Origin: a virus
IMG/VR virus record: IMGVR_UViG_3300049927_000035
Coordinates: 1-44,016 of that record
DNA length: 44,016 nucleotides
Direction: 5' to 3' (one strand)
Made by a program: the position numbers and the translations under genes. Numbering within the stretch: position 1 is the first letter of the stretch; every line of letters begins with the position of its first letter. Of the stretch, positions 4,981 through 42,762 are shown one piece after another. The notes beneath the pieces were generated by a model, which saw only the letters and a list, made by a program, of their open reading frames with translations, made no database searches and was not told the origin of the DNA.

Positions 4981-5288
4981 CAGGCGTCCAGCTCCACATC
5001 TAGGGCTTTCGCGAGGGCCACAATGTGATCTTTTTCCCAGCCCGATCTGCCTTCGGGGTGCAGCCAGAACCATTGCCCGATGTGCGTCTTGGACGGCATG
5101 ACGATCCCGCGCTTACCCTTCGCGGACCAGACGTGCGCGAGGGCTTCGTCGTATGTGTCGAAGGACCGCTTACCCTCAGGCTTGTATGCGAACCGCGGCG
5201 GGGTTGCCTTCCACTTCCGCACGCCGGTGACCATGTCCGTGGAGGATTCGATGCGCCACTTGCCGTGGTGGGGTCTGTGCTTGCTCAT
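4980..5288 (-). CDS. Hypothetical basic protein, 102 aa
   Basis: The start at 5288 overlaps the stop of the kinase-phosphatase gene (TGATG). The first 45 residues are rich in Lys, Arg and Trp (HHGKWRIE, RKWKATPPRF). The middle has FDTYDEALAHVW, an amphipathic helix-like segment. The end has WFWLHPEGRSGWEKDHIVAL. No recognised catalytic motif, signal peptide or membrane segment is seen. Placement directly after the RNA-repair pair and before the small zinc protein suggests co-expression but not a shared function. I do not recognise the family. Confidence 0.68.
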   Translation of the reverse strand: MSKHRPHHGKWRIESSTDMVTGVRKWKATPPRFAYKPEGKRSFDTYDEALAHVWSAKGKRGIVMPSKTHIGQWFWLHPEGRSGWEKDHIVALAKALDVELDA

Positions 5289-6193
5289 CAGAAGTTCCCG
5301 TCCGCGACTTGGAACACGGTCAGGCCGATCGCACGCCACATGCGGACCACCTGATCCCGATCGTCCCAAACGCCAGCCACGTTGAACTTGCCGCGGATGT
5401 GCTCGTTGAACAGCTCGTGCTTCACGACAGCGTCTTTGCGCTTATCGCCGAGCGGGCGCATGTGCAGTTCGTCGGCTATGAGTCCCTGTCCTTTGAGCCA
5501 GTGCGCGGTCACGAAGCGGTGCTCGGCGTCGCGGCCGGTCATGTAGATGATGCGGTGGGTTTTCTGGAGCATCCGGATGATGCGCACGACGGGCCAGTTC
5601 GGCGTGTCAAGGTGCGCTTTGGAGCCGTCGTAAATGTCGCGGTCGCCCTTGATGGCCACGGTCCCGTCGATGTCCACGAGGTAGACGGAGTGCAGGCCGA
5701 TGGTGGGTTCCCATGGCTGCCATTCGGTGGTGGCTGGCGCGTCTGCGGTGGGGTGCGGGAGTGGGCCGCTGGCGATGTATTTGGCGTGCATGGTTTCGAT
5801 GACACTGGACGGGATGCGGGACTCGGCGGGGCGTGCCTCGTTGCGTGCCACGCACGTTTCGAATGGCACATCCGTAAAGTCCTTCACGACGAGCTCCGCA
5901 CCGGTGATGGATGCGATGGTTGCCCAGTTGCGAGCGGTGCGCTGGCGAAGGTTCGTGTCATCCACAACGACGTCGAGGCCGTTGCGTAGGAACGCCCGGA
6001 CAAGGTCCGCCCCGGTCTTGGTGATGACGTTCTCGGTGTCTTGGGTGGCGGATTGGGCGTTGACGTGGATCATGCGGCGCAGTGAGTCGCGGTTGACACG
6101 TCTCCTGGTCGAGGGTGATTCTTGGACCCACTGTTCGGCCCATGTTGTCTTGCCGGATCCGGGCAGACCTCGGGTTATAACGAGCTCAGACAT
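5288..6193 (-). CDS. Polynucleotide 5'-kinase / 3'-phosphatase (T4 Pnkp-like)
   Basis: 301 residues, the same length as T4 Pnkp. The N-terminal kinase domain has the P-loop GLPGSGKTT at 9-17 and a VNRD segment ending in D36, placed like the catalytic Asp of Pnkp. The C-terminal HAD phosphatase has YLVDIDGTV with nucleophile D174 and acid/base D176, then IIYMTGRD. The enzyme would heal RNA breaks by phosphorylating 5'-OH and removing 3'-phosphate ends, ready for ligation. It overlaps the upstream RNA ligase gene by 8 nt, so the two form one repair cassette. The start at 6193 puts the P-loop near the N-terminus, as in the family; a longer upstream reading is Arg/Ser-rich shadow. Confident. Confidence 0.92.
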   Translation of the reverse strand: MSELVITRGLPGSGKTTWAEQWVQESPSTRRRVNRDSLRRMIHVNAQSATQDTENVITKTGADLVRAFLRNGLDVVVDDTNLRQRTARNWATIASITGAELVVKDFTDVPFETCVARNEARPAESRIPSSVIETMHAKYIASGPLPHPTADAPATTEWQPWEPTIGLHSVYLVDIDGTVAIKGDRDIYDGSKAHLDTPNWPVVRIIRMLQKTHRIIYMTGRDAEHRFVTAHWLKGQGLIADELHMRPLGDKRKDAVVKHELFNEHIRGKFNVAGVWDDRDQVVRMWRAIGLTVFQVADGNF

Positions 6194-7250
6194 TTGCGGT
6201 CTCCTTCGTGAAGGTGGGGCGGATCTGCTTCCACGCCCACTCGCTGATGTCACGGCCGTCGAGTAGCTGGAACAGGGCGGGGCGCGTCTCTGGGTAGAGC
6301 GCTGTTGCCTGCGCGTATTCGCGGCGTTCGAATCCTTCGGGGAGGGTTTCGAGGATGCCGTGGTGAACGGCGTGCGCTGCGCCGATGTAACCGTCGAACT
6401 TGTCATTCAAGTCCTCGGCGATACCCATGGCCCATGCGTGGAACTCGTCAGGGACGCCCGCGAGCAAGGTCTCGTAGTCCTTACCGGTGGCGAGCATTTC
6501 CCAGATGGTGCGTTCGTTCCATCCGGTGACGATCTTGTGCAGCGCAACGTAGTCGTCCTGCTTGATCTTGATGCGCACGTCACTGTCGCGGAAGTGCACG
6601 ACGTAGCCTTCGGCGTTCTTGCGCGGCGGCGCGGCGAGGGCTTCGGCGAACGTGTTGAACGGGTAGATTTCCGCTGCCTGACCATCCCACGGGATATCCC
6701 GTGGCGTGAACGTTTCGCCGGTTGCAATGTCCACCCCGCCAAGCAGGATCAGGTCTTCTACGGGGCCATAGTCCAGGACGATGCGGTTCTCGGGAAAAAT
6801 GATTTCGAAGAGGACCGTGACGCCTGCCGGTGGCCGCCAGTTAGGATACTGCTTGCAGAGGATCTGCTCAGCCTTCGCGGCTTGCGTGCTGGTGAAGGAT
6901 CCGCGGGTGGCGATGCTTGGGTGGCCGAGTCCGTCGAGGTAGACGATGCCGAGGGAGCCGTCGAGCTTGTCAGTGACGGTGACAGGTTCGTCAAGGTTGA
7001 AGGCGGGGTGGTGGTCTTCGGAGTGGTTGAAGAACTTCGGGAACGGGCGGGCGACAACCTCAAGGGTTTCGCTGTTGTAGATGAGCCCGCGGCATGCCCG
7101 GGTGACGTCAGTCCATTCGCGCTTGTACTGCGCGAGTTCGGTGTAGTTCAGGATGCGGAGCGGCAAGCTCGGGTGGGTTTGGGTGCGGATGAAGCCGTCA
7201 GCGATGGCCTGGGCGAGCGCTTCGGCGGTGAAGAGGTCAGTGATTCTCAT
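6186..7250 (-). CDS. RNA ligase (T4 Rnl1-like)
   Basis: 354 residues, close to T4 Rnl1 (374). Motif I is TDKLDGSLG with the AMP-accepting lysine at K95. An EIIF-containing strand (motif III), EGYVVHF (motif IV) and RIKIKQDDY (motif V) complete the nucleotidyltransferase core, and a helical C-terminal domain follows. It would join 5'-phosphate and 3'-OH RNA ends prepared by the neighbouring kinase-phosphatase. In T4 the same pair reseals host tRNA cut by anticodon nucleases as an antiviral response. The ATG at 7250 overlaps the SSB stop (TGATG). The family call is firm; the natural substrate is inferred. Confidence 0.92.
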   Translation of the reverse strand: MRITDLFTAEALAQAIADGFIRTQTHPSLPLRILNYTELAQYKREWTDVTRACRGLIYNSETLEVVARPFPKFFNHSEDHHPAFNLDEPVTVTDKLDGSLGIVYLDGLGHPSIATRGSFTSTQAAKAEQILCKQYPNWRPPAGVTVLFEIIFPENRIVLDYGPVEDLILLGGVDIATGETFTPRDIPWDGQAAEIYPFNTFAEALAAPPRKNAEGYVVHFRDSDVRIKIKQDDYVALHKIVTGWNERTIWEMLATGKDYETLLAGVPDEFHAWAMGIAEDLNDKFDGYIGAAHAVHHGILETLPEGFERREYAQATALYPETRPALFQLLDGRDISEWAWKQIRPTFTKETANV

Positions 7251-15405: not shown

Positions 15406-16581
15406 ATGGCAAGCATCAGAAAGCGGATTCGCAAAGACGGATCCGCCACGTGGCAAGTCCTGTTCCGCAACGTTGACACGGGCAGGCAAGAGGGCATTAC
15501 CTACACGCTCGAGTCGGACGCCAACAGGATGCGTAACCTCCTCGAAGCCAACGGCCACTCCTACCGGATCGCCGAAGCGGCCATCGATGCAGCGGAACAA
15601 AGATCCCGAACCGTGGCCGACGTCGTCAAGGAACACATCGACCTGCTCATCAAGCCCGGGCCGCAGACGATCCACAACTACCGGGCCATGCTCGAGCACC
15701 ACATCAAAGACAGCCTCGGTGCGGCCGCAGTGTCAGCCATCGACTACCGGCACATCACCGAGTGGATCCGGACGCTCCAGAAAAAGGGACTGTCTCCGAA
15801 GACCATCCGGAATATTCACGGGCTCTTGTCCGCATCCATGGAAACGGCTGTTCGACTCAAGTACCGGCCAGACAACCCCTGTCGCGGCGTGGACCTGCCA
15901 TCGAGCGAGCACCGCGGCAACAAGATGACCGTACTCACCTACGTGGAATTCAAGACGCTACGGGATGCGATCAGCGAACGCTACCGGCCTTTCGTGCTGT
16001 TCCTGGCCGTGACGGGGGCGCGCTTTGGCGAAGCGACCGCCGTGAAGGTTGGCGACATACACCTTGACGGACGGACGGCAACGGTTGAAGTCACCAAGGC
16101 GTGGAAGCGACAAGGGTCCACCGGCTACAAGATCGGTGAGCCGAAGAACGAATTCTCATGGCGCACGATATCGCTCTCTGATGCTCTGGTGCGCGAGCTC
16201 CGGCCGCTGGTGGATGGCCGGCAAGGTGACGAGTGGTTGTTCACGAACCGTGACGGCGTATCGCACGTTGACCACCGATCGTTCTATCAGAAGCACTGGG
16301 TTCCGACAATCGCCCGGCTCAACAAGGACAAGGCCGTGAACTTCGCCAAGAGACCGCGTATCCACGATCTGCGCCACACTTCGGCTTCGTGGCTGATCCA
16401 TGAGCATATGGATACGTTCAAGGTGGCGCGGCGCCTGGGTCACTCGTCCACGGCCATGATCGACCGTGTCTACGGCCACCTCATGCCGGATGCCCAGGCG
16501 GAAGGAACGCGCACGATGAACCAAGCCATGCGCGAACTCCTCCCGCCCGAGGCGCTGGAAGGTTCGGCCGCTGGTTCGTAG
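15406..16581 (+). CDS. int: Tyrosine integrase
   Basis: 391 residues of the tyrosine recombinase family. Residues 1-60 carry an AP2-like arm-binding domain (KRIRKDGSATWQVLF), 65-165 a SAM-like core-binding domain, and 175-391 the catalytic domain. The catalytic set is complete: R206 in TGARFGEA, H320 and R323 in HDLRHT, H346 in LGHSS and nucleophile Y356 in DRVYGH. It would insert the phage genome at a host tRNA gene via the attP just upstream. The ATG at 15406 follows TAGAGGC and needs no extension; overlapping frames are shadows. A bidirectional terminator ends the transcript. Confidence 0.97.
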   Translation: MASIRKRIRKDGSATWQVLFRNVDTGRQEGITYTLESDANRMRNLLEANGHSYRIAEAAIDAAEQRSRTVADVVKEHIDLLIKPGPQTIHNYRAMLEHHIKDSLGAAAVSAIDYRHITEWIRTLQKKGLSPKTIRNIHGLLSASMETAVRLKYRPDNPCRGVDLPSSEHRGNKMTVLTYVEFKTLRDAISERYRPFVLFLAVTGARFGEATAVKVGDIHLDGRTATVEVTKAWKRQGSTGYKIGEPKNEFSWRTISLSDALVRELRPLVDGRQGDEWLFTNRDGVSHVDHRSFYQKHWVPTIARLNKDKAVNFAKRPRIHDLRHTSASWLIHEHMDTFKVARRLGHSSTAMIDRVYGHLMPDAQAEGTRTMNQAMRELLPPEALEGSAAGS

Positions 16582-28100: not shown

Positions 28101-28945
28101 TCATCCTTGGCACCCTGAGCGGACGCCTTCAACGCCGCCAGACCGGCGGCGCCACGGAACCCGGCCTTCTCCATGATGTACATACCCTCGGACATCTGCT
28201 CAGCAGAGGTGCCCGTCTGGGTGGAGATGTCCAGGATGCCCTTGCGGACCCCGTCGAGGGCGGACATCTGCTCCCCGCCAGCCGTAACCAAAAGCATGGT
28301 GGACTTCTCGAAGTGCGCCGCCATTTCGGTCGCACCGATGGCCACAGCGGCCCCGGCGAGGAGGGACACGGCGCTGATCTTGTTCGCCACACCCACGACG
28401 GAGGCCATGGCCACTTTGGTGCGTGTCGCGGCGACTTCCTGCGCTGCGGCAGACTTCTCCGCTGCAACGACTTGGAGGTCGGCGGCTTTCGCCTGCGCCG
28501 CGGCGGAAGCAACAGCAGCAGCAGCAGCATTGTCCTGCGCCTGGATTTCCTTCGCGGCCGCCAGCGAGACGGCGTTCGCGGCCCGTTCGGCGGCGGCTAT
28601 CTGCTTGTCGTAGGCGACCTGCTGTTCCTTGGTCATGACGCCAAGGGACTCGGTCTGCATCTGCGTGGCCTTGGCCTGCGCTTCGGTGGCCTTGACCTCG
28701 GCCGCGATCCGGCGATCAGCGGCAACAACGGCGGCTTTAGCTGACGTTTCGGCGGCGAGGGTCTTCTGTTCGGCTGCGCGGGTCGCTTCGGCTGCCGAGG
28801 TGCGGGCGGCCGCAGCTTCCTTCTGTGCGGCCTTCTCGGTCTCCGTGGCTGTGGTCTTCGCCGCCGCAACAACCTTGCCCTGCTCCGAAAAGAACTGGCT
28901 CGCGTTGGCCCGCATTTCCATGACGACAGGGGGAAGGAACGACAT
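25190..28945 (-). CDS. Tape measure protein
   Basis: 1251 residues, the longest gene. Residues about 18-190 are an Ala-rich coiled coil. A TP901-like tape-measure core follows (AAHFEKSTMLLVTAGGEQ, then LDISTQTGTSAEQMSEGMYI, then IVPIASTAKISFAEVGGAIA). Hydrophobic segments lie in the centre (LLGVAGIIGGALLISTV, MAAGLAASLMVVAAG). The C-terminal FDGGIIPGTPPSNPRIDNLM and VRSGEFITNEPATKANLPWL are standard near tape-measure ends. At about 0.15 nm per residue the tail would be roughly 190 nm. The ATG at 28945 has GGAG in front; an upstream extension is shadow. Very confident. Confidence 0.97.
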   Translation of the reverse strand: MSFLPPVVMEMRANASQFFSEQGKVVAAAKTTATETEKAAQKEAAAARTSAAEATRAAEQKTLAAETSAKAAVVAADRRIAAEVKATEAQAKATQMQTESLGVMTKEQQVAYDKQIAAAERAANAVSLAAAKEIQAQDNAAAAAVASAAAQAKAADLQVVAAEKSAAAQEVAATRTKVAMASVVGVANKISAVSLLAGAAVAIGATEMAAHFEKSTMLLVTAGGEQMSALDGVRKGILDISTQTGTSAEQMSEGMYIMEKAGFRGAAGLAALKASAQGAKDENVDLATMSQATTDVLLDYGYKMDTAAHATDSAVRVTNMLVAASGAAKTTMQDFAGSMSAIVPIASTAKISFAEVGGAIATMTQHGQTAQQSSQNLANLVMSLIRPNNLASAAMSQLGIDTTDLAQHLGDRGLSGSLKIVDDAIKAHTKDGLVYTGTMKDNANAAKAMKTIMDQMSPTMANQSQKLLDGEMSQKKYGIAAKNLGGDAGALGNQFLNLYKANSGVTDALKAGKPAYETYNAALRDTLGNVTAMRAAQMLLMNNGREFEANIKAIGEAGNKTGQDISTWADMQSTLSVQMDQTKQMAANFGIELGTKLIPVAKDTVKGVTDLFHGFEQGNPVLLGVAGIIGGALLISTVNFGIQMGKTVVKTISGLVDMGATAIAQSSLFVSGMMADEVAVGQFSSKAELAGAKVKGMGGTMAGVGAMAAGLAASLMVVAAGSEKVTIDAGKMATALTVFGDGTSTSKAQMDSMFSHWSTQWGMATSDIHGVDDAVNKLLHEDFQDQMSKWGDGLRDMFGIAHGEASQNEAAFKSMGDQLGKLADTNLTKAQSAFQQLALKTDGSKESLQKLLDAMPGYKNALEDQVRSTGKTLSQQEMVEYAYGKIPKTMQDAAKSTTGFTDAIGQVHPITPELQKSLDDAGVSADGLATDLGKVLDGMLATGMKTETTRAATEGFNKTIRDADTAVADLVKSHVDVSNALNDTATDFNLADEAGSALNDKFTAIKDKGVAVAKSMVGQGKDSVVGALQDTYDNMLRAADSMGIHGQAAIDLTRNLMGIPKNVDVKTWMDAQARAEADKLQASLDKLPTFKSVAVHVQYTESGTAVLQHASDAGGGNTIKISNMGGAVSETMGFFDGGIIPGTPPSNPRIDNLMAEVNGKPLKVRSGEFITNEPATKANLPWLKASNAGLNIGNAMQSRYASGYAQGAAQAAPAYAIAGAQGPNITNNVNVQTNATGDQIAKAISWEMRIK

Positions 28946-28964
28946 GGGGAGCCTCCAAGGGCCT

Positions 28965-29387
28965 TTAGAATTTGATGTAACGCGCCCAGTTGGCGGTGGC
29001 GATGGCGGCCATTTCGAGGCGCAGATGCGCGGCGGCCGGGCCGAAGTACGGGTAAGCTCCGGTCGGTGCGAGGCCGAGCTCCACACGGCGGCCGTACTTC
29101 ATGGTTGGGCCCACGGTCGTGGAGTACAGGCCCATGCCGTAATGCTTGGTCGAGTCCGCCATGATCGATCGGCGCAGGTTGCCCGTAACAACGTTCGGCT
29201 TGTTCCCGCCGACGTGCGGCTGGCCCTTCTTGTGGGCGCCCACGAAGTTGTTCTGCGCGTCACGGATCAGGGTCGCGGCCGCGACGGACACGTTCGCCCT
29301 GGCTGCGGCGTCAACCTGAATACCGGCCCGCGTCACGGCCTTCTCGAGATCTTCGATCCCGTGCCAGATGAATTCCAGACCTGACAC
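28965..29387 (-). CDS. HK97 gp10-like tail protein
   Basis: 140 residues from GTG 29387, with GGGAG 7 nt ahead. GLEFIWHGIEDLEKAVTRAG, an Ala-rich helix, VVTGNLRRSI and the C-terminal VELGLAPTGAYPYFGPAA match the HK97 gp10/tail-completion family. Such genes normally sit between connector and major tail genes; here it follows the chaperones, just before the tape measure. It may therefore assist tail initiation or neck assembly. Longer upstream reading overlaps the frameshifted chaperone and is rejected. Confidence 0.8.
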   Translation of the reverse strand: MSGLEFIWHGIEDLEKAVTRAGIQVDAAARANVSVAAATLIRDAQNNFVGAHKKGQPHVGGNKPNVVTGNLRRSIMADSTKHYGMGLYSTTVGPTMKYGRRVELGLAPTGAYPYFGPAAAHLRLEMAAIATANWARYIKF

Positions 29388-29397
29388 GGGATGCTCC

Positions 29398-30071
29398 CTA
29401 CTGGATGATTGGTTCGAACGCTTCGCCCAACGGCGCTGGGGGCTGCGGGGCGTAGGCGTCCTCGATGCGGAGCAGCATTTCAATGACCGACTCGGGCGTG
29501 TCCATGTACTCCGCATAGGTGCCGCCATAGAGGGGGTACCAGCGGTTCCGGAACCTTAGGAGTTCGAGGTCTTCCGGGTGGAGTTCCGACGCTTTGCGGT
29601 CGCCCCTGATTGCGTCTTGGATTTTTCTGAGGCGCCAGTAAAAGACTCTTTGTTCTCGAGCGTCTCGGTGCTCATCTCGAAGTCATCCGTGATGTCGGGG
29701 TTGCCGAGCTTCGCAACTTCGTTGCTCAGGGTGTCGACAATGTCAGACGGGATGTCGAGTAGGTCTTCCCATGTCGCTGGGAGGGGAATGTCAAGGGACC
29801 ATGATTTGAGGTATCCCCACGTGACGGCGCACTGCATGTGATCGAGCGTTTCCGCTTCGTACTGGGTGAGTCGCACATCGGGGCCGGTGAGGATCGGGTT
29901 TTCCTCGACCCTGCCATCAGGGGATTCGACGCGGCCAGCTGCGGCGATCTTGCCGAGGAGCTGGTCCGAGCGGCGCATCAGTGCCCTGGCCGGGATACGG
30001 CGCCGCGGCGTGAGTTCCTTGGGTTCGAACAGTTCGGCGGTGCCGCCGGGAATCTGGACAGTTTTGGACAT
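29398..30071 (-). CDS. Tail assembly chaperone gpGT, made by -1 frameshift
   Basis: A -1 shift near K150 of the gpG frame, at GAA-AAA-T (29627-29621 on the minus strand), joins gpG to a second open frame of 74 codons ending at 29398. The added part is clearly protein-like (IQDAIRGDRKASELHPEDLE, then FRNRWYPLYGGTYAEYM, then ESVIEMLLRIEDAY). The FRNRWYPLYGG segment resembles the T portion of known gpGT proteins. The product would be about 224 residues. In lambda-like systems the gpG/gpGT ratio controls tail assembly on the tape measure. The slip site is inferred from the overlap; AAA tRNA slippage on five A is the simplest explanation. Confidence 0.82.
29556..30071 (-). CDS. Tail assembly chaperone gpG
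   Basis: 171 residues from ATG 30071 (AGGAG ahead; an N-terminal extension is shadow). The middle, RLTQYEAETLDHMQCAVTWG, then ATWEDLLDIPSDIVDTLSNE, is typical of the short chaperone. The last ~25 residues are Ser/Thr/Lys-rich (SKTQSGATAKRRNSTRK) and lie in the part overlapped by the -1 frame, consistent with a tail free of structural constraint. Located between the major tail and tape measure genes, as expected. It binds the tape measure during tail assembly and is absent from virions. Confidence 0.86.
   Translation of the reverse strand: MSKTVQIPGGTAELFEPKELTPRRRIPARALMRRSDQLLGKIAAAGRVESPDGRVEENPILTGPDVRLTQYEAETLDHMQCAVTWGYLKSWSLDIPLPATWEDLLDIPSDIVDTLSNEVAKLGNPDITDDFEMSTETLENKESFTGASEKSKTQSGATAKRRNSTRKTSNS
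29621..29631 (-). promoter_or_regulatory. Programmed -1 ribosomal frameshift site
   Basis: Within the minus-strand string TCAGAAAAATCC the zero frame reads TCA GAA AAA TCC; slipping back one base on the run of five A lets the ribosome continue as AGA AAA ATC. Upstream codons belong to gpG, downstream codons to the T extension. The heptamer is A-GAA-AAA, not a textbook XXXYYYZ, so the efficiency may be low. Confidence 0.7.
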
Positions 30072-30101
30072 GAGGGGATACTCCTGTGGGGATAAGTGGG
30101 T

Positions 30102-30125
30102 GGCGGGCGCCCGAAGACGCCCGCC
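30102..30125. other. GC hairpin after the major tail protein gene
   Basis: GGCGGGCG and CGCCCGCC pair perfectly with an 8-base loop, 23 nt beyond the major tail stop codon (minus direction). No U-tract follows, so it is more likely a partial terminator or 3'-end stabiliser that raises tail-tube mRNA relative to the chaperones. Similar hairpins follow the capsid and connector genes. Confidence 0.6.
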
Positions 30126-30147
30126 GGGGTTGTACAACCTGTGGGGT

Positions 30148-31449
30148 TTAGTACGGGGTCGAGGAAGTGGTGACGATCTTCGCCTGAATCGGGGAGAGCT
30201 TCCCGTCCAGGGCGTCCGTGGCATTCATGAGCGCCTTGAAGTTCGACGCGATGGTCGCAAAGGACGTGTTGCTTCCCTGAGGGCCGGCGGAGTCGTACGT
30301 GATCTTGGAGCACTGGAGCACGAGCGGGTGCGCGGAGTCGGCCTGCTGGTTGCAAGACAGCGACAGCGCGGGCTGAACGTTCGTGGTCAGGTTCACGAGG
30401 TCGGAGTCCGTGAGGCCCTGGTAGATGGCATTCAGGGAACCGGACACGGTCAGGGGCCCTGCGAAGATCGACGTCGGGGCGTTGGTGCCGTTCAGCGTGC
30501 CGACAGGGGTGACGGTGCGCTTCAAATCGAGCGAGAAGTCCGAGTACCGGTCCGTGAACGCGCCAGCAATGGTGATACCGGCACTGGACGGCGGGAACGG
30601 CGGCAGAGTCGACGGCGTGTTCGTGGGGGCGGACAGGGTCTTGCCCGGCATACCGATCCACGAAGCATCCACGGTGACCTGGGTGTCGGTCTTGAACGTG
30701 AATTTCAGGTCCGCGAGGATCATGCCCGGGATCTGGATGACGTTCCCGTCGAACTGGTACAGGAACCCGGTGTAGGAGTTCGGCTGGCCCGCGTGGGTGG
30801 CGTCGGAGGCGTTGCCCAGGGACAGGGCGTGCACGTTGCCAGCAACGGCAGGCGGGGACTGTGTGCCGATGTTCAGGCCGGTGTCCGTGTACGCGGTCAC
30901 GACGCCGAGCTTCGCGACGAGAATGGTCTCAGCACCTGCTGCGGTGCCGCGGTAGACGTTGTAACCGGTTGCGCCGGTCACGGTCGTCCATGTGAGCGGC
31001 TGCGAGGATGTGGCGCCGGTCAGGGTGGCGGTGACTTCGTTGGAGCCGATGCCTTCACCGCCTGCAGCGGTCGCGGTGACCTTCCAGTAGGTGGCGCCTG
31101 CGGGGAGCGTGCCGCCTGTGGTCGACGTCGAACCGAGGGTCAGGGTCGTTGCGGTGAGCGGGGTGACGTTGTCGGTGCCGCCGAGGATGGCCACAAGGTG
31201 CGGGAAGATCGAGTCCGCGTAGATCATGGTCTTGTACGAGAGCTCGTCGTGGCGCATGCCCTGGGTCTGGCCGTAGTCGGTGCCCATGTAGCCGCGAAGC
31301 GCCTGGTCAACGAGGGGCGTGATTTTCGGTTCCCACTTGGGGGTGTCGACGGGGACCCACATGGTGGGTGCGGCGACTGCGACGCCGTAGGTGGTTTCTT
31401 TGGCATAGCCGAACCACTGCTGGGAGCCCGGCCGGGGGGTGGTTGTCAT
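30148..31449 (-). CDS. Major tail protein with Ig/FN3-like insertion
   Basis: 433 residues. N-terminal QQWFGYAKETTYGVAVAAPT and KWEPKITPLVDQALRG, and the C-terminal SLDLKRTVTPVGTLNGTN are typical of tail-tube subunits in actinophages. Residues about 103-198 are an inserted Ig/FN3-like unit (STTGGTLPAGATYWKVTATA, then WTTVTGATGYNVYRG), which closely resembles the insertion in the capsid protein at 150-246. It probably protrudes from the tube as decoration. Located just before the chaperones, as expected for the tube subunit. Confidence 0.88.
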   Translation of the reverse strand: MTTTPRPGSQQWFGYAKETTYGVAVAAPTMWVPVDTPKWEPKITPLVDQALRGYMGTDYGQTQGMRHDELSYKTMIYADSIFPHLVAILGGTDNVTPLTATTLTLGSTSTTGGTLPAGATYWKVTATAAGGEGIGSNEVTATLTGATSSQPLTWTTVTGATGYNVYRGTAAGAETILVAKLGVVTAYTDTGLNIGTQSPPAVAGNVHALSLGNASDATHAGQPNSYTGFLYQFDGNVIQIPGMILADLKFTFKTDTQVTVDASWIGMPGKTLSAPTNTPSTLPPFPPSSAGITIAGAFTDRYSDFSLDLKRTVTPVGTLNGTNAPTSIFAGPLTVSGSLNAIYQGLTDSDLVNLTTNVQPALSLSCNQQADSAHPLVLQCSKITYDSAGPQGSNTSFATIASNFKALMNATDALDGKLSPIQAKIVTTSSTPY

Positions 31450-33806: not shown

Positions 33807-35258
33807 TTAGGAAGCCGCGATGTCCTGGATCACGCCGAACGCCACAGGGGCGCGGTTGATCAGTGCCGAGGTGGAGAAAACTTCACCGTCGTTACGCGGA
33901 CCGCCGCCAGCACCAGACGCACGGTTCGTGGCGTACTGGTAGTCCTGCACGCTGCGCAGATCGCGCACCTCGAGGGTGTTGGCGATGTTCGCACCAGCGA
34001 ACGGGGCGCCCGAGTCGGACAGGGCAATCAGGGTGCCCGGTGCGAGGTTCGGCTCAACGATCAGCGGAACGGGAATGCCGCCAGCCGCCTTGTTGATGTA
34101 CGAGCCGATGTAACCGCCGGCCTCGATGTTGTTCCGGCCGGAACCGTTCGGGGTGAGGAACGTGGTTCCGCCGCCCGCAGTGGACAGGAGCAGCTTGGAG
34201 ATGCTGTTCGCTTCCTGCGAGGACATCAGGTACCGGGTGGGGGATGCCTGGATGTTGTTGAACAGGGCGCTGTTGAGGGCGTCGAGCTCGTTGATGGACT
34301 GGCCGGATGCAGTGAATGCCGCGCCGCCGAGGGTCTGGAACGTGGCGCCCGAGGAGGTGCCGGAGCCTCGGGTGACGAGGCCGGTGGCGCCGCCGGTTGC
34401 GTAGTCACCCGCGAGGGTGGCGAGCAGGCCGTTGAAGTCCGTGGCCTTCGCCGAGGAGTCGGCGACGGGAACGGCGGTCGGTGCGGTGCCGTAGATGCCG
34501 GGGATGTTCGGCACGGCCTGGTTGGACGCGGGCGGGGTCGTGGTCCACACGTACTTGTTGACGGTCGTGGTCGTGGTGTAGAAGCCGTTGACGTAGATGT
34601 CGTAGGCCACAGCGCCCGGGATGGACGGCCATGTTGCGGTCAGCGTGGACGTGGCGCCCGTGGTGACCTGCGAACCGGCGGCGGAGGCGATGGTGGAGCC
34701 GCCGTAGTTGAAGTTCGACATGGTCCGGGCAGCTACCTTGATCAGGTAGGTGTTCGCCGCAACAGTGCCGCCCGTGGTGGCCGTGGCCGTGGTCGGAGCG
34801 GTCGGGGTCGGCAGGGCGAACACCTGTCCGCCGAGGAGCTTGCGGTCGGCGCCGATCTTGTACTGGTTCATGGCGTTCATGACCGCGATGGCGTGCGCGT
34901 CGGCGTAGTTCTTCGCGAACGAGATGGCGTCTTCGGTCACGGTGTAGCCGTAGCCGAGCTTGCCATAGGGTGCGGAGACGTCGAGCTCGTTGAGCAGCGC
35001 CAGCGGTGCGGCGTAGTCAAACGCGGTGCCGGGGTCGGCCTGCAGGTTGTTGATGTTCGTCAGGACACGCCACTGGCAGAACTTCGCGCCATCGGTGGCG
35101 GCCTTGCGGGGGGCCGAGTCAAGGAACGGGGTATTGACCGGGATGAGCGATACGAGGTCGCCAAGGTCAACACCGACGATGCCGGTGCCGGAGGTGATAC
35201 CAGCGGTCTGCGCCTTGATCAGCGCGAGGGTTTCGAGGGACTTGTCGTCCATGTTCAC
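33807..35258 (-). CDS. Major capsid protein with Ig/FN3-like insertion
   Basis: 483 residues. N-terminal TLALIKAQTAGITSGTGIVG and LIPVNTPFLDSAPRKAATDG, the helical middle SFAKNYADAHAIAVMNAMNQ, and the C-terminal GPRNDGEVFSTSALINRAPV (A-domain region) match HK97-fold capsid proteins of actinophages. Residues about 150-246 insert a beta-sandwich (TTGGTVAANTYLIKVAARTM, then TWPSIPGAVAYDIYVNGFY) that resembles the insertion in the major tail protein. The start may be GTG 35258 or the ATG two codons later; AAAGG is positioned for the GTG. It follows the scaffold gene, in standard order. Confidence 0.93.
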   Translation of the reverse strand: MNMDDKSLETLALIKAQTAGITSGTGIVGVDLGDLVSLIPVNTPFLDSAPRKAATDGAKFCQWRVLTNINNLQADPGTAFDYAAPLALLNELDVSAPYGKLGYGYTVTEDAISFAKNYADAHAIAVMNAMNQYKIGADRKLLGGQVFALPTPTAPTTATATTGGTVAANTYLIKVAARTMSNFNYGGSTIASAAGSQVTTGATSTLTATWPSIPGAVAYDIYVNGFYTTTTTVNKYVWTTTPPASNQAVPNIPGIYGTAPTAVPVADSSAKATDFNGLLATLAGDYATGGATGLVTRGSGTSSGATFQTLGGAAFTASGQSINELDALNSALFNNIQASPTRYLMSSQEANSISKLLLSTAGGGTTFLTPNGSGRNNIEAGGYIGSYINKAAGGIPVPLIVEPNLAPGTLIALSDSGAPFAGANIANTLEVRDLRSVQDYQYATNRASGAGGGPRNDGEVFSTSALINRAPVAFGVIQDIAAS

Positions 35259-36397: not shown

Positions 36398-36784
36398 TCA
36401 GCTTTCGAGGTTGGGGGAGGGTTTGCGGCGCTTCGCTGTGCCCTGGGGGGACAGCCCGGTGATGTCGCCGGATTCGTAGAGCGCCCACGCGGTTTCGTCT
36501 AGGACGGTGCCCAGAAGCCAGTCGCCGGACTTCACAATCACGCCGTCTCCCAGATCCCAGTTCGGGCCGCGGTAGATGTAGCTTTCTACGACATCCGCGT
36601 GCCCTTCGGTGCCGTTCTCGTGGAACAGGCCGATGGACCGGGAGGACTTGTTGAACTCCCAAGCCGCCTTCTCGAGCTCCGCGGGGGTGAAGAAGTCGCG
36701 TGAACCATCCGCGCCGGTCGCGATCCTGGGATCGGGGCCGGCCTGGTAGGCGATGGAGAGCAGGTAGCGTTGCGGCTCACTCAC
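36398..36784 (-). CDS. XkdF-like prohead protease
   Basis: 128 residues from a GTG in a GTGA overlap with the portal stop. The sequence TPAELEKAAWEF, SIGLFHENGTEGHADVVESY, GVIVKSGDWLLGTVLDETAW and the ALYESGDITGLSPQGTAKRR ending match the XkdF-type putative serine protease family, with GLSPQG probably carrying the active serine. Such proteases cleave scaffold and sometimes portal or MuF partners during maturation. Shorter than the fused forms; the expected C-terminal portion (DLVGKAANGHRF) begins the next gene. Good family match. Confidence 0.8.
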   Translation of the reverse strand: MSEPQRYLLSIAYQAGPDPRIATGADGSRDFFTPAELEKAAWEFNKSSRSIGLFHENGTEGHADVVESYIYRGPNWDLGDGVIVKSGDWLLGTVLDETAWALYESGDITGLSPQGTAKRRKPSPNLES

Positions 36785-39771
36785 AGGGCGTGTCCTTCGA
36801 TGTAGGGTGCGGCTGCGCAACGGCAGTACGGGTGTGCGGGGATGAGTGATTCGCCGACGGGGAAGTGCAGCCCGTCTTTCGGGGAGCACACCTCAGGGCA
36901 AGCCCCGGCAGAGGTGACCCATGTCCACTGGGCGACGCCGAGCGCCTGGTATTGGGCCATGGCAGCGTCGGTGAGCATGCGTGCGGTCTCGGTCTGGGCG
37001 ATCATGAGGGACCGCACCGGATCGTCCAGCACATCGTTCAGTGCCCGGCCGATGACGTCGGACGGGTCGCCAGCGTTCACGCCGTCAGCGATCTTGTACG
37101 CGAGCCGGTTCACGGTCGTGTCGGTGATTTCCTTGAGCGTGATGCCCGCGTTTTGCAGGGCTTCTTTCCAACCGAGGGCGGTGATCTGGTTCGCGTCGGT
37201 CATGCCCGGCGTCCACGTCCCCCAGTTCGGGGGCGTGTCGCCCATCTGCACCTTCGCGGCCATGATGCCCGAGTGGTACGCGTCAGCCCATGCGTTCGTG
37301 ATGACCTGCTCGAGCGTGGACGGCTGCACCGAACCGGACAGGACACGCCTGGCGACGTCACGGAACACGCCGAGCGCAACGTCACCCACACCCTCGGTTG
37401 ATGTGATCGCGGCCTGTAGGTCGCTTTCACGCCACAGCTGGGTCATGGACTCCTGGATCCTTGGTGACCAGTAGTCGGTCAGGGCAAGGTCCACCAAGTG
37501 CTGCGGCTGGGCGTTCGGGGGTGCGTCACGCCATTTAGGCGTACCAGCTTTTGGGCCAGCATCAGTCCCGACGTGATCATCCTTGGCCAGTTGCGCACGG
37601 GCCGTATCGTTCAGGTGCTTCGCGACAGGTGCCGGGATGGCATCGAATTCGAAGTCACGCCACGTGCCACGCTTTGCACGGGCCTTCGTGAACGCCTGGA
37701 ACTTCGCCAACTCCTTGGCGGTTGCCTTGGCGAGCTCCTCAGCGGGCAGGTTGTCGGCGAGTTCCTCACGCAATGCGGGGAATCCGTCGAGGTGGTCCGG
37801 GTCGAACCATGCCAGCGTTTCGCCGTCTTCACCGTCTCCGGTGTTGATCGGGATGGACGCCTCAGAATCGATCTTGAACACGTGCCCGGCGTAGTTGCCG
37901 TTCGCCCACGAGCCGACAAGGTTGGCGTCTGCCGGGAAGTCAAGCCCGGTTTCTTCCTCCCATTCACGGATCGCCGCGTCCTGCGCGGTTTCGCCAGCGT
38001 CAAGATGCCCGCCGGGGAACTCCCAACGGCCTGCGGCTGGGTCCTCGGGGTCGAGGTAGCGCTGGATCATCAGCACCCGGCCGGTGTCCTTGGCCTTCAC
38101 TGCTGCCCCGGCAACCTTGACGTCGGACTTCTCGAGCTCGTCAGGTTTGACCTGATCCACGCCCGTGATTCCGGTGGCCGAGGTGACGCCGGCCGTGAGT
38201 TCCTTCGCAACCGTGGGTGACGGCTTGGCGATCGTGCCGGTGTCCTCGTGGACGTGCTCCAGTTCAGGGAAGCGCGGCTCGTCAGGATTGATCGGTGCCC
38301 GGTGGAACTCTGGCGAACCCGGGAGCTTGTCAGGCATCAGGCCCGGCGTCCCGGCGAACGGAACCTCCGGGAGCGGCTGGTCATCAGCCGGGGCCTTCGT
38401 TTCCGGGTCCACCTTGCCGGAAATGGCAAGCAGCGAAGCCAGCGGGACGAAGCCCTGGCGCGGCAGCACCAGGCCACGCGGGACCGGACGCTCATTATCG
38501 ACCGGCAACCCGAGGATCTGCTCGCGACCCTCGTCGGCCGATGCCATGCCGGATTCGATGTACAGCTTCCATGCCTGAGCTTCGGTGAGGCGGTCTTCCT
38601 TGTCGCGGCCGGTGTTCAGCTTCAACTGGACGGGCAGTCCGAGGTCGTGCTGCAGGTAGCGGGTGAGGATTGCCTCGACGAAGCGCACCCATGGGAGGGT
38701 GTTGACGCGGAACTGGGTGTCGGTCTGGGTTTCGCCCGTGGCACGGTTCACGTCATCGGTGAGCCCCAAGTCCTGCGGGACCACACCGAACGCGCCCGCA
38801 ACCTTGATGTCAAGGTATTTCGGGAAGTTCGGGTCGAACGCGATCGGGACCGTACCCGTGAACTTGGATCCGGTCGGCACGGCAATGAGCTTGTGCGTGA
38901 TGGACTGGTCGCCCATGAACGTCGCGTCCCAGTAGTCCTGCCACTCAGCCACCTGATCGGGTGACGTGACGTCCGGAGGCATCTCCATGAAGCCGCCGGG
39001 GATGGACCCCTCGGTGAACATCTGCAGGAGGTGCCACTGGAAGCGCATGTCCGTGTTGACGGTCAGCATGATCGATTCCAGCGGGGCCATGCCGTACGGG
39101 GAGTCTGTCTGCGGCCGGTAGCGGGTGTAGGTCAGGTCCTCGGCAGTGAAGTCCACGGACGCCTGACCGCGGATGATCTGCTGATACGCAGGGGCGGGTG
39201 CCTGGGGGCGGCGGCCGTGATCGTCGATCAGCGGGTAAATCGTTGCGCCGTCCACGATTTCAAGGCCGATGATCTGGCCGTCACGGTTACGGCGACGGTA
39301 CAGGGGGCCGGAGTCGAACGTGAGCATGTTTTCCAGCCACAGGGCCAGCCACTCATCCCATGAGTGCTCACGGTCGGGGAATGCCAGTGCGGCCCGTGCG
39401 GCGGATACTGCAGCTTCGCCGTCGCCCTTGAATCCATCCATGGGCGTCAGGAGCGGCTCCATGGAGCGCAGCTCGTCGATCTTGTGGTTCTTGCACATCT
39501 GCGCCGTACCGTAGGCGCGCATGAGTTCACGCAGCACGTCATAGGAGGTGCGCCCCCACGCCTGCCGGGAACGGGACGTGAGGTTGACGCCGACAGGGTA
39601 GTCATTGGCTCGCGGCCGCACACTGTACCCGCGGGACGGGGCGAGAGGCTGCCCTGGTCCCATGTCCGAGTTACCGGCCATGCCCTGCAGGGTGAGGGCG
39701 TCACTGATGGGCTGTGGGGTGGTGGCCCTTTTGAGCAGGCCGTCGCCACGGAAGAGATCCATGATTCCCAA
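36781..39771 (-). CDS. Portal-Nudix-MuF fusion protein
   Basis: 996 residues in one uninterrupted frame. Residues about 60-450 are the portal: RSYDVLRELM-type clip start, SPYGMAPLESIMLTVNTDMR, LGLTDDVNRATGE, TRYLQHDLGLPVQLK, with the usual crown. About 545-680 is a Nudix domain whose box fits exactly: G588 to L610 (GHLDAGETAQDAAIREWEEE then TGL). About 770-990 is a MuF-type minor head domain, with IAQTETARM and the Cys pairs C958/C962 and C983/C985 (HPYCRC). TTG 39771 fits a GGAAGG site; ATG three codons on is an alternative. Portal and MuF fusions are known, but a Nudix domain between them is very unusual. The dodecameric portal would put Nudix and MuF domains inside the head. Confidence 0.93.
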   Translation of the reverse strand: MGIMDLFRGDGLLKRATTPQPISDALTLQGMAGNSDMGPGQPLAPSRGYSVRPRANDYPVGVNLTSRSRQAWGRTSYDVLRELMRAYGTAQMCKNHKIDELRSMEPLLTPMDGFKGDGEAAVSAARAALAFPDREHSWDEWLALWLENMLTFDSGPLYRRRNRDGQIIGLEIVDGATIYPLIDDHGRRPQAPAPAYQQIIRGQASVDFTAEDLTYTRYRPQTDSPYGMAPLESIMLTVNTDMRFQWHLLQMFTEGSIPGGFMEMPPDVTSPDQVAEWQDYWDATFMGDQSITHKLIAVPTGSKFTGTVPIAFDPNFPKYLDIKVAGAFGVVPQDLGLTDDVNRATGETQTDTQFRVNTLPWVRFVEAILTRYLQHDLGLPVQLKLNTGRDKEDRLTEAQAWKLYIESGMASADEGREQILGLPVDNERPVPRGLVLPRQGFVPLASLLAISGKVDPETKAPADDQPLPEVPFAGTPGLMPDKLPGSPEFHRAPINPDEPRFPELEHVHEDTGTIAKPSPTVAKELTAGVTSATGITGVDQVKPDELEKSDVKVAGAAVKAKDTGRVLMIQRYLDPEDPAAGRWEFPGGHLDAGETAQDAAIREWEEETGLDFPADANLVGSWANGNYAGHVFKIDSEASIPINTGDGEDGETLAWFDPDHLDGFPALREELADNLPAEELAKATAKELAKFQAFTKARAKRGTWRDFEFDAIPAPVAKHLNDTARAQLAKDDHVGTDAGPKAGTPKWRDAPPNAQPQHLVDLALTDYWSPRIQESMTQLWRESDLQAAITSTEGVGDVALGVFRDVARRVLSGSVQPSTLEQVITNAWADAYHSGIMAAKVQMGDTPPNWGTWTPGMTDANQITALGWKEALQNAGITLKEITDTTVNRLAYKIADGVNAGDPSDVIGRALNDVLDDPVRSLMIAQTETARMLTDAAMAQYQALGVAQWTWVTSAGACPEVCSPKDGLHFPVGESLIPAHPYCRCAAAPYIEGHAL

Positions 39772-39777
39772 GTGGGT

Positions 39778-41310
39778 CTACCTTCCGTGATGGTTTTTGA
39801 GTTCGGCCGCTTGTTGCCGCCAGTTACGTGAATGGTTCGGTGGGGTGATGCCTTGTTCCTCGAGCCGGTTCTTCATGGCTGTCAGGAACGCCGCACCTTG
39901 GCCGCCGCGCAGAAAGAGCCGGTTGAGTGCCTGGGTGAGTGCGTCAACGCGGTCATCGTGGGCGCCGTTGGGGAACGCGGCCGCTTCTTCGATGAGCCCG
40001 TCAACCCATGGGGCGAGTTTCGGGTCGGGCAGGTGCACGTTTCCGGCCTCGATGAATGGGGTTACGGCGGCGGCGCGTGCCTCTTTGGATTCCTTGGCTT
40101 TGACGGGGATGAGTCCGGAGACTTTGCCTTTGAGGGAGTCGAGGATCGCCGCGCCGTTGGCTGCCTCTTCGACGAGTTTCGCGGAGGCTTGCGGCCACTT
40201 CGCGACCATGGCTTCGAAAGCGGTCAAGGTCTCGGTGAACGTCAGCCGGGCGTGCTTCTGGTCGAGCAGGTACGCATCAGCGCCGCGTTTGAGCCACACT
40301 TGCCCGGCGACATAGTCGCTGTTCTGGGTAGCCTTGAATGCCATGTCCCACGAGAGGATCAGTTCGTCCGATGCTCCTGTCGTGCGGCACACGCCGTTCT
40401 CTTCGATCCAGAGTGGCGTCCGGTAGAGCTGCCAGTCCTTGCGCTTGAACAGGCCACCCTCGGTCGGGGCGGGTCGGCCTTGATAGAGGGCGTTCCAGAC
40501 GCGGGAACCGGCGCGCTTCTTGATGGCTTCCCATTGGGCGTCGGTGCGGCCGCGGGTCGATTCGAGCCATTCGCCGGGGACGCGGCTGAGGATGTCTTTT
40601 TCGCCCTTGTCCGGGTTGTGGTCGGCTTGTGCGGGGATGTTCACGACGTTCCACAGGTGCCCGTCCTCAGCTTCGAGGAGGCGGCCGGCGAGGTCGAGTT
40701 GGTGCCACCGGGTCATGATCAGGATCACGGGGGCGCCGGGTGCGAGGCGGGTCGATGCCGTGCCGGTCCACCAGTCCCATGCACGTTCCTGGTAGGTGGC
40801 CGATTCTGCTGTGTCCATGCCGGAGTGCGGGTCGTCGATCACCATCATGTCCGCGGCGCGCCCGGTCAGGCCGCCGCCGATGCCCACGGCGTAGAGTCCG
40901 CCGCGGTGCCCATCGATCTGCCATTCGGATTGCGCGGACACGTCTGGGCGGATGCTGATGCCGAGGTCGCGGCCGTGCGTTTCGATGTGATTGCGGATGG
41001 AGCGGCCATTACGCCGCGCCAAGGACATGGCGTAGGAGGCTGTGACGATGCGAGTGTCAGGGGACTGTGAGAGGACCCATAGCGGGAAGACCTCGGCGAC
41101 ACGGGTCGACTTCCCCTCTTGCGGACCTAGGAAGATCATGGTGCGCGAGTCGGGGGTGTTCCATGCGTCGAGGAGTGCTTCGTCGATGAGATCAAGCGCG
41201 GGGGTCTGGACGCTCTTCGGGTTCAGGTAGCGTGCGAGGTGGCCCGGGCTGGTGAATCGTGGCCCGGAACCGGCTTCGAAGGCTTTGGCGGCGAGTTCTG
41301 CCCAGTTCAT
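39778..41310 (-). CDS. terL: Terminase large subunit
   Basis: 510 residues. Packaging ATPase with variant Walker A GPQEGKST (62-69), Walker B MMVIDD (155-160) and coupling region LIMTRWHQLD. The nuclease domain has LSWDMAFK, with the usual first Asp, and the C-terminal AHDDRVDALTQAL. I chose ATG 41310 because GGGAGG is 6 nt ahead; the reading extends upstream but without a ribosome-binding site. It drives DNA into the head and cuts the concatemer. No small subunit is recognised nearby. Confidence 0.96.
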   Translation of the reverse strand: MNWAELAAKAFEAGSGPRFTSPGHLARYLNPKSVQTPALDLIDEALLDAWNTPDSRTMIFLGPQEGKSTRVAEVFPLWVLSQSPDTRIVTASYAMSLARRNGRSIRNHIETHGRDLGISIRPDVSAQSEWQIDGHRGGLYAVGIGGGLTGRAADMMVIDDPHSGMDTAESATYQERAWDWWTGTASTRLAPGAPVILIMTRWHQLDLAGRLLEAEDGHLWNVVNIPAQADHNPDKGEKDILSRVPGEWLESTRGRTDAQWEAIKKRAGSRVWNALYQGRPAPTEGGLFKRKDWQLYRTPLWIEENGVCRTTGASDELILSWDMAFKATQNSDYVAGQVWLKRGADAYLLDQKHARLTFTETLTAFEAMVAKWPQASAKLVEEAANGAAILDSLKGKVSGLIPVKAKESKEARAAAVTPFIEAGNVHLPDPKLAPWVDGLIEEAAAFPNGAHDDRVDALTQALNRLFLRGGQGAAFLTAMKNRLEEQGITPPNHSRNWRQQAAELKNHHGR

Positions 41311-41351
41311 CCCGGACCTCCCTTGCCGCCTTTCAGCTATCGTTTGATTTG

Positions 41352-41591
41352 CTAGGACTCCAGCACTTGCCTCAGTGAGCTTTCGAAACATTCCTGCCAC
41401 TCGGCGAAGTGTTCACCAGTTGAGAGGTCGTTAGCTGCGGCCATCTGCACCGTGAGCTTGAGCGCGTCAAGGCGGATCTGATAGTCGGTGGGCCGAAAGC
41501 TCAAGAGTGCCTTCTTGACCTCTTCGATCGACGCATGAAATTCTGTGGTGTCGATGCTGAGTTTCATGGTGACGGGCGGCAGCATGGCCAT
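41352..41591 (-). CDS. Hypothetical protein before terminase, 79 aa
   Basis: 79 residues (or 71 from the second Met) with AGGAG ahead. Helical and charged (IDTTEFHASIEEVKKALLSF, RLDALKLTVQMAAANDL, HFAEWQECFESSLRQVLES). It stands directly before terL, where small terminase genes often lie, but no HTH is evident. Its size and helices make a small-terminase-like or accessory role possible, nothing more. Confidence 0.66.
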   Translation of the reverse strand: MAMLPPVTMKLSIDTTEFHASIEEVKKALLSFRPTDYQIRLDALKLTVQMAAANDLSTGEHFAEWQECFESSLRQVLES

Positions 41592-42428: not shown

Positions 42429-42688
42429 TGCAGGCCTCCATGGCGTGGGGAAAGGTTGCCCTGTCTTTAGTGCTTGCCGTAGACATGGGGCGGTAGATTC
42501 GGCATATTCGCCGCGCTTGGGGTCCCTGTTCTCATGGAAGGGCTCACACTTGGGCGGGACGTTTGATGGCCTGTTGTTCTCGCAGGTTTGCCGACTGCGC
42601 CCCGGCCTTCGCCGGGGAATGGTTCGCGCTATTACGGGCGCACCCGAGGCAGTTTCGCTGTTGCGAGACGTGGCTACCCAGCACGTCG
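42429..42688. other. Intergenic stretch between tRNA-Trp and zinc-protein gene
   Basis: 260 bp without a supportable gene. It holds a strong GC hairpin at 42600-42617 (CCCCGGC and GCCGGGG around CTTC), which is not followed by a T-run on either strand and may be an RNA-processing or partial termination site downstream of the tRNA. Frames that cross the tRNA are artefacts. No convincing promoter is seen. Confidence 0.5.
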
Positions 42689-42762
42689 CATGGAGGGCAG
42701 GACTCGAACCTGCAACCCACGGTTTTGGAGACCGCTGCTCTACCAATTTGAGCTACCTCCAC
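42689..42762 (-). tRNA. tRNA-Trp (anticodon CCA)
   Basis: 74 nt with all arms: acceptor GTGGAGG / CCTCCAT (G-U first pair), T8-A9, D stem GCTC/GAGC, anticodon arm GCGGT-CTCCAAA-ACCGT with CCA anticodon, variable loop GGGTT, T arm GCAGG-TTCGAGT-CCTGC and discriminator G. The 3' CCA is not encoded. It would supply Trp tRNA during late expression; portal, capsid and tail proteins are Trp-rich in places. It may also replace host tRNA cut by anticodon nucleases, in line with the phage RNA-repair genes. Confidence 0.95.

Follow-up and report, generated by a model that had tools for sequence, protein, structure and literature searches.

Phage portals are usually regarded as rings of twelve identical chains whose C-terminal arms point into the capsid, while MuF proteins are found in heads at low copy numbers that have had no explanation. 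In phage SPP1, a small number of copies of the MuF protein gp7 enter procapsids by binding the portal, and gp7 helps infection to start (PMC6316719). Enzymes may travel the same way: Iyer et al. 2022 (PMC9503650, section 3.5.2) describe phage Nudix domains fused to MuF, portal or capsid-processing peptidase and propose their packaging and injection, and work on polyvalent proteins (PMC5512222) agrees, the fusion partners of portal, MuF or capsid protease being Nudix and also 2H domains. Here we analyse a portal–Nudix–MuF fusion gene carried by a 44,016-nucleotide stretch of virus DNA (positions 1 to 44,016 of IMG/VR record IMGVR_UViG_3300049927_000035; hereafter, the window). We consider it highly probable that programmed −1 ribosomal frameshifting in this gene and its relatives yields portal isoforms with and without the MuF domain, which would co-assemble in a mixed portal of 12 subunits. 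All of the results were computed from sequence, largely metagenomic, and the relatives, designated by L-numbers, are IMG/VR contigs, cultured phages and bacterial genome contigs.

As with the SPP1 gp6 portal and gp7 MuF proteins, MuF would come into the capsid through the portal and in few copies (PMC6316719); the SPP1 proteins are products of separate genes, whereas the window encodes a covalent fusion, whose frameshift site could control the copy number. The same type of heptamer, giving two products in a fixed ratio, serves the lambda gpG/gpGT tail chaperones and the major head protein of Lactobacillus phage A2 (PMC5009743, PMC6316719), whereas here the gene is that of the portal and the variable end is MuF (with or without Nudix). 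As in dnaX, the slip would shorten the product in most portal-fusion members; in others, it would lengthen it. Microbacterium phage MuF–VIP2 fusions (PMC7302621) likewise have enzyme cargo on MuF in one phage that is absent from a homologue, and the PRFect screen (PMC10885494) includes VIP2/MuF-like gene pairs among unannotated frameshift predictions; both differ in the cargo and its position, and neither mentions a portal frameshift. A full-text literature search for portal or MuF together with frameshifting (subscription journals being thinly covered) returned tail chaperones and capsid proteins and no portal–MuF frameshift, and the available parts of PMC9503650 and PMC5512222 mention neither a frameshift site nor cargo alternation at one slot. 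We regard the portal–MuF frameshift site as likely, rather than certain, to be new.

The fusion gene and its relatives

The fusion gene is a single 996-codon frame with a TTG start, a Met at codon 4 and no internal stops, and comprises the following parts (pLDDT, predicted local distance difference test).

36781–39771, minus strand: portal–Nudix–MuF fusion gene (0-frame, long isoform), 996 codons
38521–39420, minus strand: portal domain, residues 118–417 (Pfam PF04860, E 5.8e-23, above cut-off)
38125–38373, minus strand: disordered portal–Nudix linker, about residues 467–549 (pLDDT <50)
37732–38121, minus strand: Nudix domain, about residues 551–680 (PF00293, isolated model and Foldseek)
37942–38010, minus strand: Nudix box, residues 588–610, with the sequence GHLDAGETAQDAAIREWEEETG at 588–609
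36796–37338, minus strand: MuF (SPP1 gp7-like) domain, residues 812–992, long isoform only (phrog_115 and family profile)

The protein has both the PF04860 profile and a portal fold, the full-length model matching the phage 812, gene transfer agent (GTA), HK97 and T5 portals in Foldseek. Pfam NUDIX (PF00293) aligned to residues 558–663 (E 1.7e-19), and PHROGs called a portal, a MutT/NUDIX and a minor head protein (phrog_115, E 3.4e-16). Pfam Phage_Mu_F (PF04233, residues 892–987, E 2.3e-5) scored 25.5 bits, slightly below its 29.6-bit cut-off; membership of the MuF family is given by phrog_115, by relatives that pass the profile cut-off (up to 39.7 bits, in L038) and by the C-terminal motif, with cysteines at residues 958, 962, 983 and 985. 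A MuF polymorphic toxin was ruled out, as MuF forms the C terminus with the enzyme upstream of it.

A preliminary description of the window had reported a portal, a Nudix domain and MuF in one 996-residue frame, as Pfam and PHROGs bear out, and had correctly located the Nudix box and the MuF Cys pairs. It also took the architecture to be undescribed, which was mistaken: the architecture is not new, because PMC9503650 states it and the annotations of two cultured Arthrobacter phages, Sonali and Mufasa8, already cover part of it. Our database search found the same domain order in these two phages (41–42% identity across 94–99% of the protein length), in many IMG/VR contigs and in Arthrobacter, Pseudarthrobacter and Subtercola genome contigs, a recurrence that rules out a chimaeric or chance origin of the fusion. 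Sonali gp3 and Mufasa8 gp3 share the domain order, the gene neighbourhood, a CCCAAAA site and a close −1 stop with the window gene; they differ in being only 41–42% identical to it and in being deposited as single coding sequences with the frameshift unannotated. All three published Nudix fusion contexts were recovered, namely portal–Nudix–MuF (the window, Sonali and Mufasa8), MuF–Nudix–protease (L004, 4870–7911; Pam4_13) and protease–Nudix (L109, 4365–6290; Streptomyces phage Gilgamesh gp52). The closest other phage Nudix domains thus also lie in head proteins (Gilgamesh gp52 and Pam4_13), which suggests a head-associated Nudix subfamily.

A slippery site between portal and MuF

The frameshift idea arose from a few relatives in which the gene is split, and the fused genes served as a separate test set. 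At the first split junctions, a canonical −1 heptamer stood just ahead of the stop of the first open reading frame (ORF), and the second ORF had no start codon. With the heptamer class defined as in-frame X XXY YYZ (where YYY is AAA or TTT), all ten of the non-redundant junctions with ORFs overlapping in the −1 frame contained one (L011, L013, L025, L085, L086, L093, L095, L098, L116 and L156; CCCAAAA, GGGAAAA, AAAAAAA or CCCTTTC), whereas it was found at none of the five junctions overlapping in the +1 frame, which had their own start codons instead (for example, ATG in L071). In portal domains, the class occurs at a frequency of 1.8e-4 per codon. Hairpin z-scores of the split genes (single sequences versus mononucleotide shuffles) were weak and uninformative. 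One could suppose that the split genes are sequencing or assembly errors of fused ones, as the portal ORF of L028 has a frame interruption that is absent from its near relative L025; for the set as a whole, this is extremely improbable, given that these slip junctions are found repeatedly, in diverged sequences as well as in contigs of separate metagenomes, that the +1 control junctions have start codons and that fused genes bear the site independently. We therefore rejected it, except for L028.

Among 58 non-redundant fused relatives (<90% identity), a heptamer was present between portal and MuF in 53, at a median of 77 amino acids ahead of MuF (47 CCCAAAA, 3 GGGAAAA, 2 CCCTTTA and 1 GGGTTTC), compared with a mean of 11.5 of 58 (maximum 17) after synonymous-codon shuffling; the portal part of the fused genes contained 11 heptamers in 30,136 codons. 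The dipeptide at the slip site varied (PK, GK or PL) with a constant slip pattern, and Pro-Lys was encoded as CCA AAA at 47 of 47 slip sites versus 0 of 119 PK dipeptides elsewhere in the same genes. A −1 stop lay 11 codons or fewer after the heptamer in 48 of the 53 genes (23% for synonymous shuffles), with a median distance of 6 codons versus 46. Together, these patterns point to an in-frame heptamer conserved beyond the amino-acid sequence and to a defined predicted −1 product, which either ends early or runs on into the next domain; the predicted short products are of 748 amino acids in Sonali (ending ...GGNPKSAYPSVLEG) and 749 in Mufasa8 (ending ...GGFPKSTYPSLVEG).

The window gene has exactly one in-frame heptamer of this class, in a low-confidence linker (model residues 728–741) between folded parts and ahead of MuF.

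37549–37555, minus strand: slippery heptamer C CCA AAA, in frame, codons 740–741 (context GG[C CCA AAA]GCT)
37535–37537, minus strand: TAA ending the −1 frame, six codons past the slip (predicted short isoform of 745 amino acids, ...DAGPKSWYA)
37489–37548, minus strand: candidate stimulatory RNA fold downstream of the slip, with weak support (peak of the folding-energy profile)

Across codons 739–745, which run from the slip as far as the −1 stop, synonymous identity among 15 near relatives was 100%, and the most synonymously conserved windows of the whole 996-codon gene were those of the slip-site region. The mRNA folding energy showed a sharp peak directly downstream of the heptamer. Separately, a second peak of synonymous conservation lies in the portal domain (codons about 196–209, around 39145–39186).

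Synonymous invariance alone would fit any nucleotide-level element, so that the region could instead be a packaging, regulatory or protein-binding element of the DNA or RNA at which no slipping occurs. We judge this very improbable: the element stays in codon phase, in ten relatives a −1 shift at the heptamer would lead exactly into the next domain, the variants GGGAAAA, CCCTTTA and AAAAAAA have only their slipperiness in common, and the −1 stop is also kept.

Under programmed frameshifting, some ribosomes would slip back one base at C CCA AAA, read ...PKSWYA and terminate. Fused genes such as that of the window would then give a long 996-amino-acid portal–Nudix–MuF protein in frame 0 and a short 745-amino-acid portal–Nudix protein by slipping, whereas split genes would give the short form in frame 0 and gain the next domain or domains by the slip. 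Both isoforms, with one shared portal domain, would co-assemble, and MuF would be brought into the head by some subunits only, keeping the MuF dose of a covalent fusion low, like that of SPP1 gp7. The C-terminal portal arm would carry an exchangeable enzyme (here a MutT/RppH-like Nudix), followed by MuF. In the window phage, the Nudix domain would be on both isoforms; in L086, L093, L095, L025 and L096, it would be on one form only, either the minority or the majority form, because the slip site precedes the Nudix. Less firmly, we lean towards the broader view that frameshifting determines which chains make up the portal dodecamer, placing the MuF arm (and, in relatives such as L086, L025 and L096, the Nudix) on only some subunits, and that this is conserved in a broad range of actinobacteriophages, whose portal arm also bears interchangeable cargo that processes nucleotides or RNA.

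Several observations weigh against this interpretation. Five fused relatives (L024, L046, L048, L083 and L145) have no heptamer, and the −1 stop of L099 and L103 comes only after 71 codons. The fold downstream of the heptamer is only modestly stronger than in synonymous shuffles (mean z −0.77, with 70% below 0). The tail-chaperone region of the window (28900–30300, upstream of the tape measure) lacks −1 heptamers of the AAA/TTT class and so offers no internal positive control; nor is a joined tail chaperone annotated in Sonali or Mufasa8. Finally, the mixed dodecamer is an inference, and so is the injection of Nudix, which is suggested by its fusion to head proteins.

A conserved MutT/RppH-like Nudix domain

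The preliminary description had named loss of the Nudix box in homologues as an outcome that would refute it, and the box proved to be kept: among 41 non-redundant relatives, R602, E603 and E606 were conserved in 41 of 41, E607 in 40 of 41 and Glu or Asp at position 594 in 41 of 41, with W622, Y627 and E637 also invariant. The domain combines the Nudix fold with an intact Gx5Ex7REUxEExGU box, according to sequence and model, and the invariant catalytic residues rule out a dead relic. Structure prediction, which had been proposed for this region, returned a confident fold (pLDDT 89 for the isolated domain), the nearest sequences and folds in the PDB being MutT-like 3r03 (the top Foldseek match), 3hhj and Mycobacterium smegmatis MutT2, as well as RppH. 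The NCBIfam matches were all MutT-type models, each under its cut-off, and ADP-ribose pyrophosphatases matched only at E near 9e-4. An X-loop proline of the ADP-ribose type is not conserved among the 41 relatives, which have an invariant Tyr627 instead. An ADP-ribose-type Nudix (NudE or ADP-ribose pyrophosphatase) is thus not indicated, and the cyclic-ADP-ribose- or nicotinamide adenine dinucleotide (NAD)-type substrates first suggested are not favoured; this also differs from PMC9503650 and PMC5512222, which place the fused Nudix domains in a T4 NudE-like, ADP-ribose-linked clade. A Tyr motif is discussed for diadenosine tetraphosphate (Ap4A) hydrolases (PMC5389931), but we did not accept Tyr627 as proof of such an activity, as a Tyr with roughly equal spacing is also present in MutT-like 3r03. 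Sequence and model together indicate that the domain is very probably an active pyrophosphohydrolase, for which (oxidised) nucleotides, RNA 5' ends or dinucleotides are more likely substrates than ADP-ribose.

Some relatives have interrupted Nudix regions. In L065 and L074, a Cys/His-rich loop of ~50 residues is inserted just ahead of the DPAAG segment, and in L026 a ~530-nucleotide insert (about 2512–3042) breaks the Nudix-coding region, with L158 possibly similar; an RNA-family (intron) origin of the L026 insert was dismissed, as it had no Rfam match.

An exchangeable cargo position

The portal tree comprised 66 non-redundant sequences, in 63 of which Nudix presence could be scored. Nudix was present in 41 of the 63, with at least 12 changes between presence and absence on well-supported branches and 16 in the full tree. 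For example, L105 from Arthrobacter liuii, which has no Nudix, is 79% and 67% identical to the window protein on either side of the gap, and L056 has a Nudix where L064, with a 91% identical portal, has a 2H phosphoesterase (HxT...HxT) instead. Such a 2H phosphoesterase-like domain (HHITIVYLG ... HVTLAYL; Pfam matches slightly below cut-off) lies mid-ORF in L027, L038, L053, L062 and L064. The Nudix domain also varies in position relative to a 'mid' segment, and its occurrence on either side of this segment is a further sign of an inserted module.

Two alternative roles for this module were considered. The first, which is that of the preliminary description, posits twelve copies of a single fusion product from which the XkdF protease frees the Nudix, to be injected and to destroy cyclic-ADP-ribose- or NAD-type immune signals. 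The invariant Nudix box, the XkdF-like protease gene directly downstream and the general idea published for phage Nudix–head fusions (PMC9503650) are consistent with it, but the Nudix is nearest to MutT/RppH and not to ADP-ribose pyrophosphatases, a 2H enzyme or nothing takes its place in some relatives, and the slip site speaks against twelve identical copies; we consider it rather improbable. In particular, twelve copies of the whole protein are probably wrong, as the conserved frameshift site should leave some subunits without MuF. In the second, the Nudix would work in the producing cell or during packaging, clearing oxidised or free nucleotides near the motor, and would be on the portal for location only. 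The MutT-like nearest relatives, and the retention of Nudix in both predicted window isoforms, fit this role, which we hold to be unlikely, if the stronger of the two: a module that has come and gone repeatedly, and that gives way to 2H at similar portals, looks more like conflict cargo than like a requirement of packaging. Delivery of the Nudix along with the DNA would be a reasonable expectation from portal geometry and published reasoning. The preliminary description is supported in that the Nudix is an intact and conserved enzyme domain, whose position would turn it towards the inside of the capsid.

Other insertions were seen among the relatives. An extra domain with a DGHHR/DGHHH-type motif lies between the portal and Nudix, 2H or MuF in L030, L034, L035, L038 and L056; it appears ParB-like by eye, and Pfam gave only a very weak DUF1015 match (L034 and L038). 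A small Cys-rich module (CGNCSMF...C.LV.G.I....CDHWE) is found upstream of MuF in L035 and L056, and also in L073; in L056 it matches HIPIP weakly. Two insertions look intein-like by eye, one in L033 (4447–10038), within the portal, and one in L103 (4618–8688, C-terminal part), within the MuF domain, and L164, with a portal match in two pieces, may hold another.

Gene neighbourhood and phage type

The fusion gene is flanked by two head genes, of which the XkdF-like protease had been recognised earlier as its neighbour, in agreement with Pfam.

36398–36784, minus strand: XkdF-like head protease gene (PF14550, E 1.3e-12), with a GTG start overlapping the fusion-gene stop
39778–41400, minus strand: terminase large subunit, directly upstream of the fusion gene (Pfam and PHROGs)

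A 483-amino-acid protein in the major-capsid position (33807–35258) matched only a PHROG of unknown function, and the gene order there agrees with the major capsid gene of Sonali. The window also encodes a DNA methyltransferase (1661–3595), a polynucleotide kinase (5288–6406), an integrase (15406–16581) and a tRNA-Trp (42688–42762). Because of its integrase gene, this 44-kb virus contig is probably that of a temperate phage. The window portal is 84% identical to a portal in an Arthrobacter liuii genome contig, and three further relatives are in contigs of Arthrobacter, Pseudarthrobacter and Subtercola; a temperate actinobacteriophage with relatives in Arthrobacter and its kin is the best explanation of the window.

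Implications

The two cultured phages, Sonali and Mufasa8, make the frameshift reading directly testable, and the alternation of Nudix and 2H provides a natural experiment on the host nucleotides that such cargo targets. If the reading is true, a frameshift in the portal gene would explain how a covalent portal–MuF fusion can supply few MuF copies, asymmetric portals would be expected in these phages, and the system would show a route by which phages set the dose of an enzyme packaged in the head.

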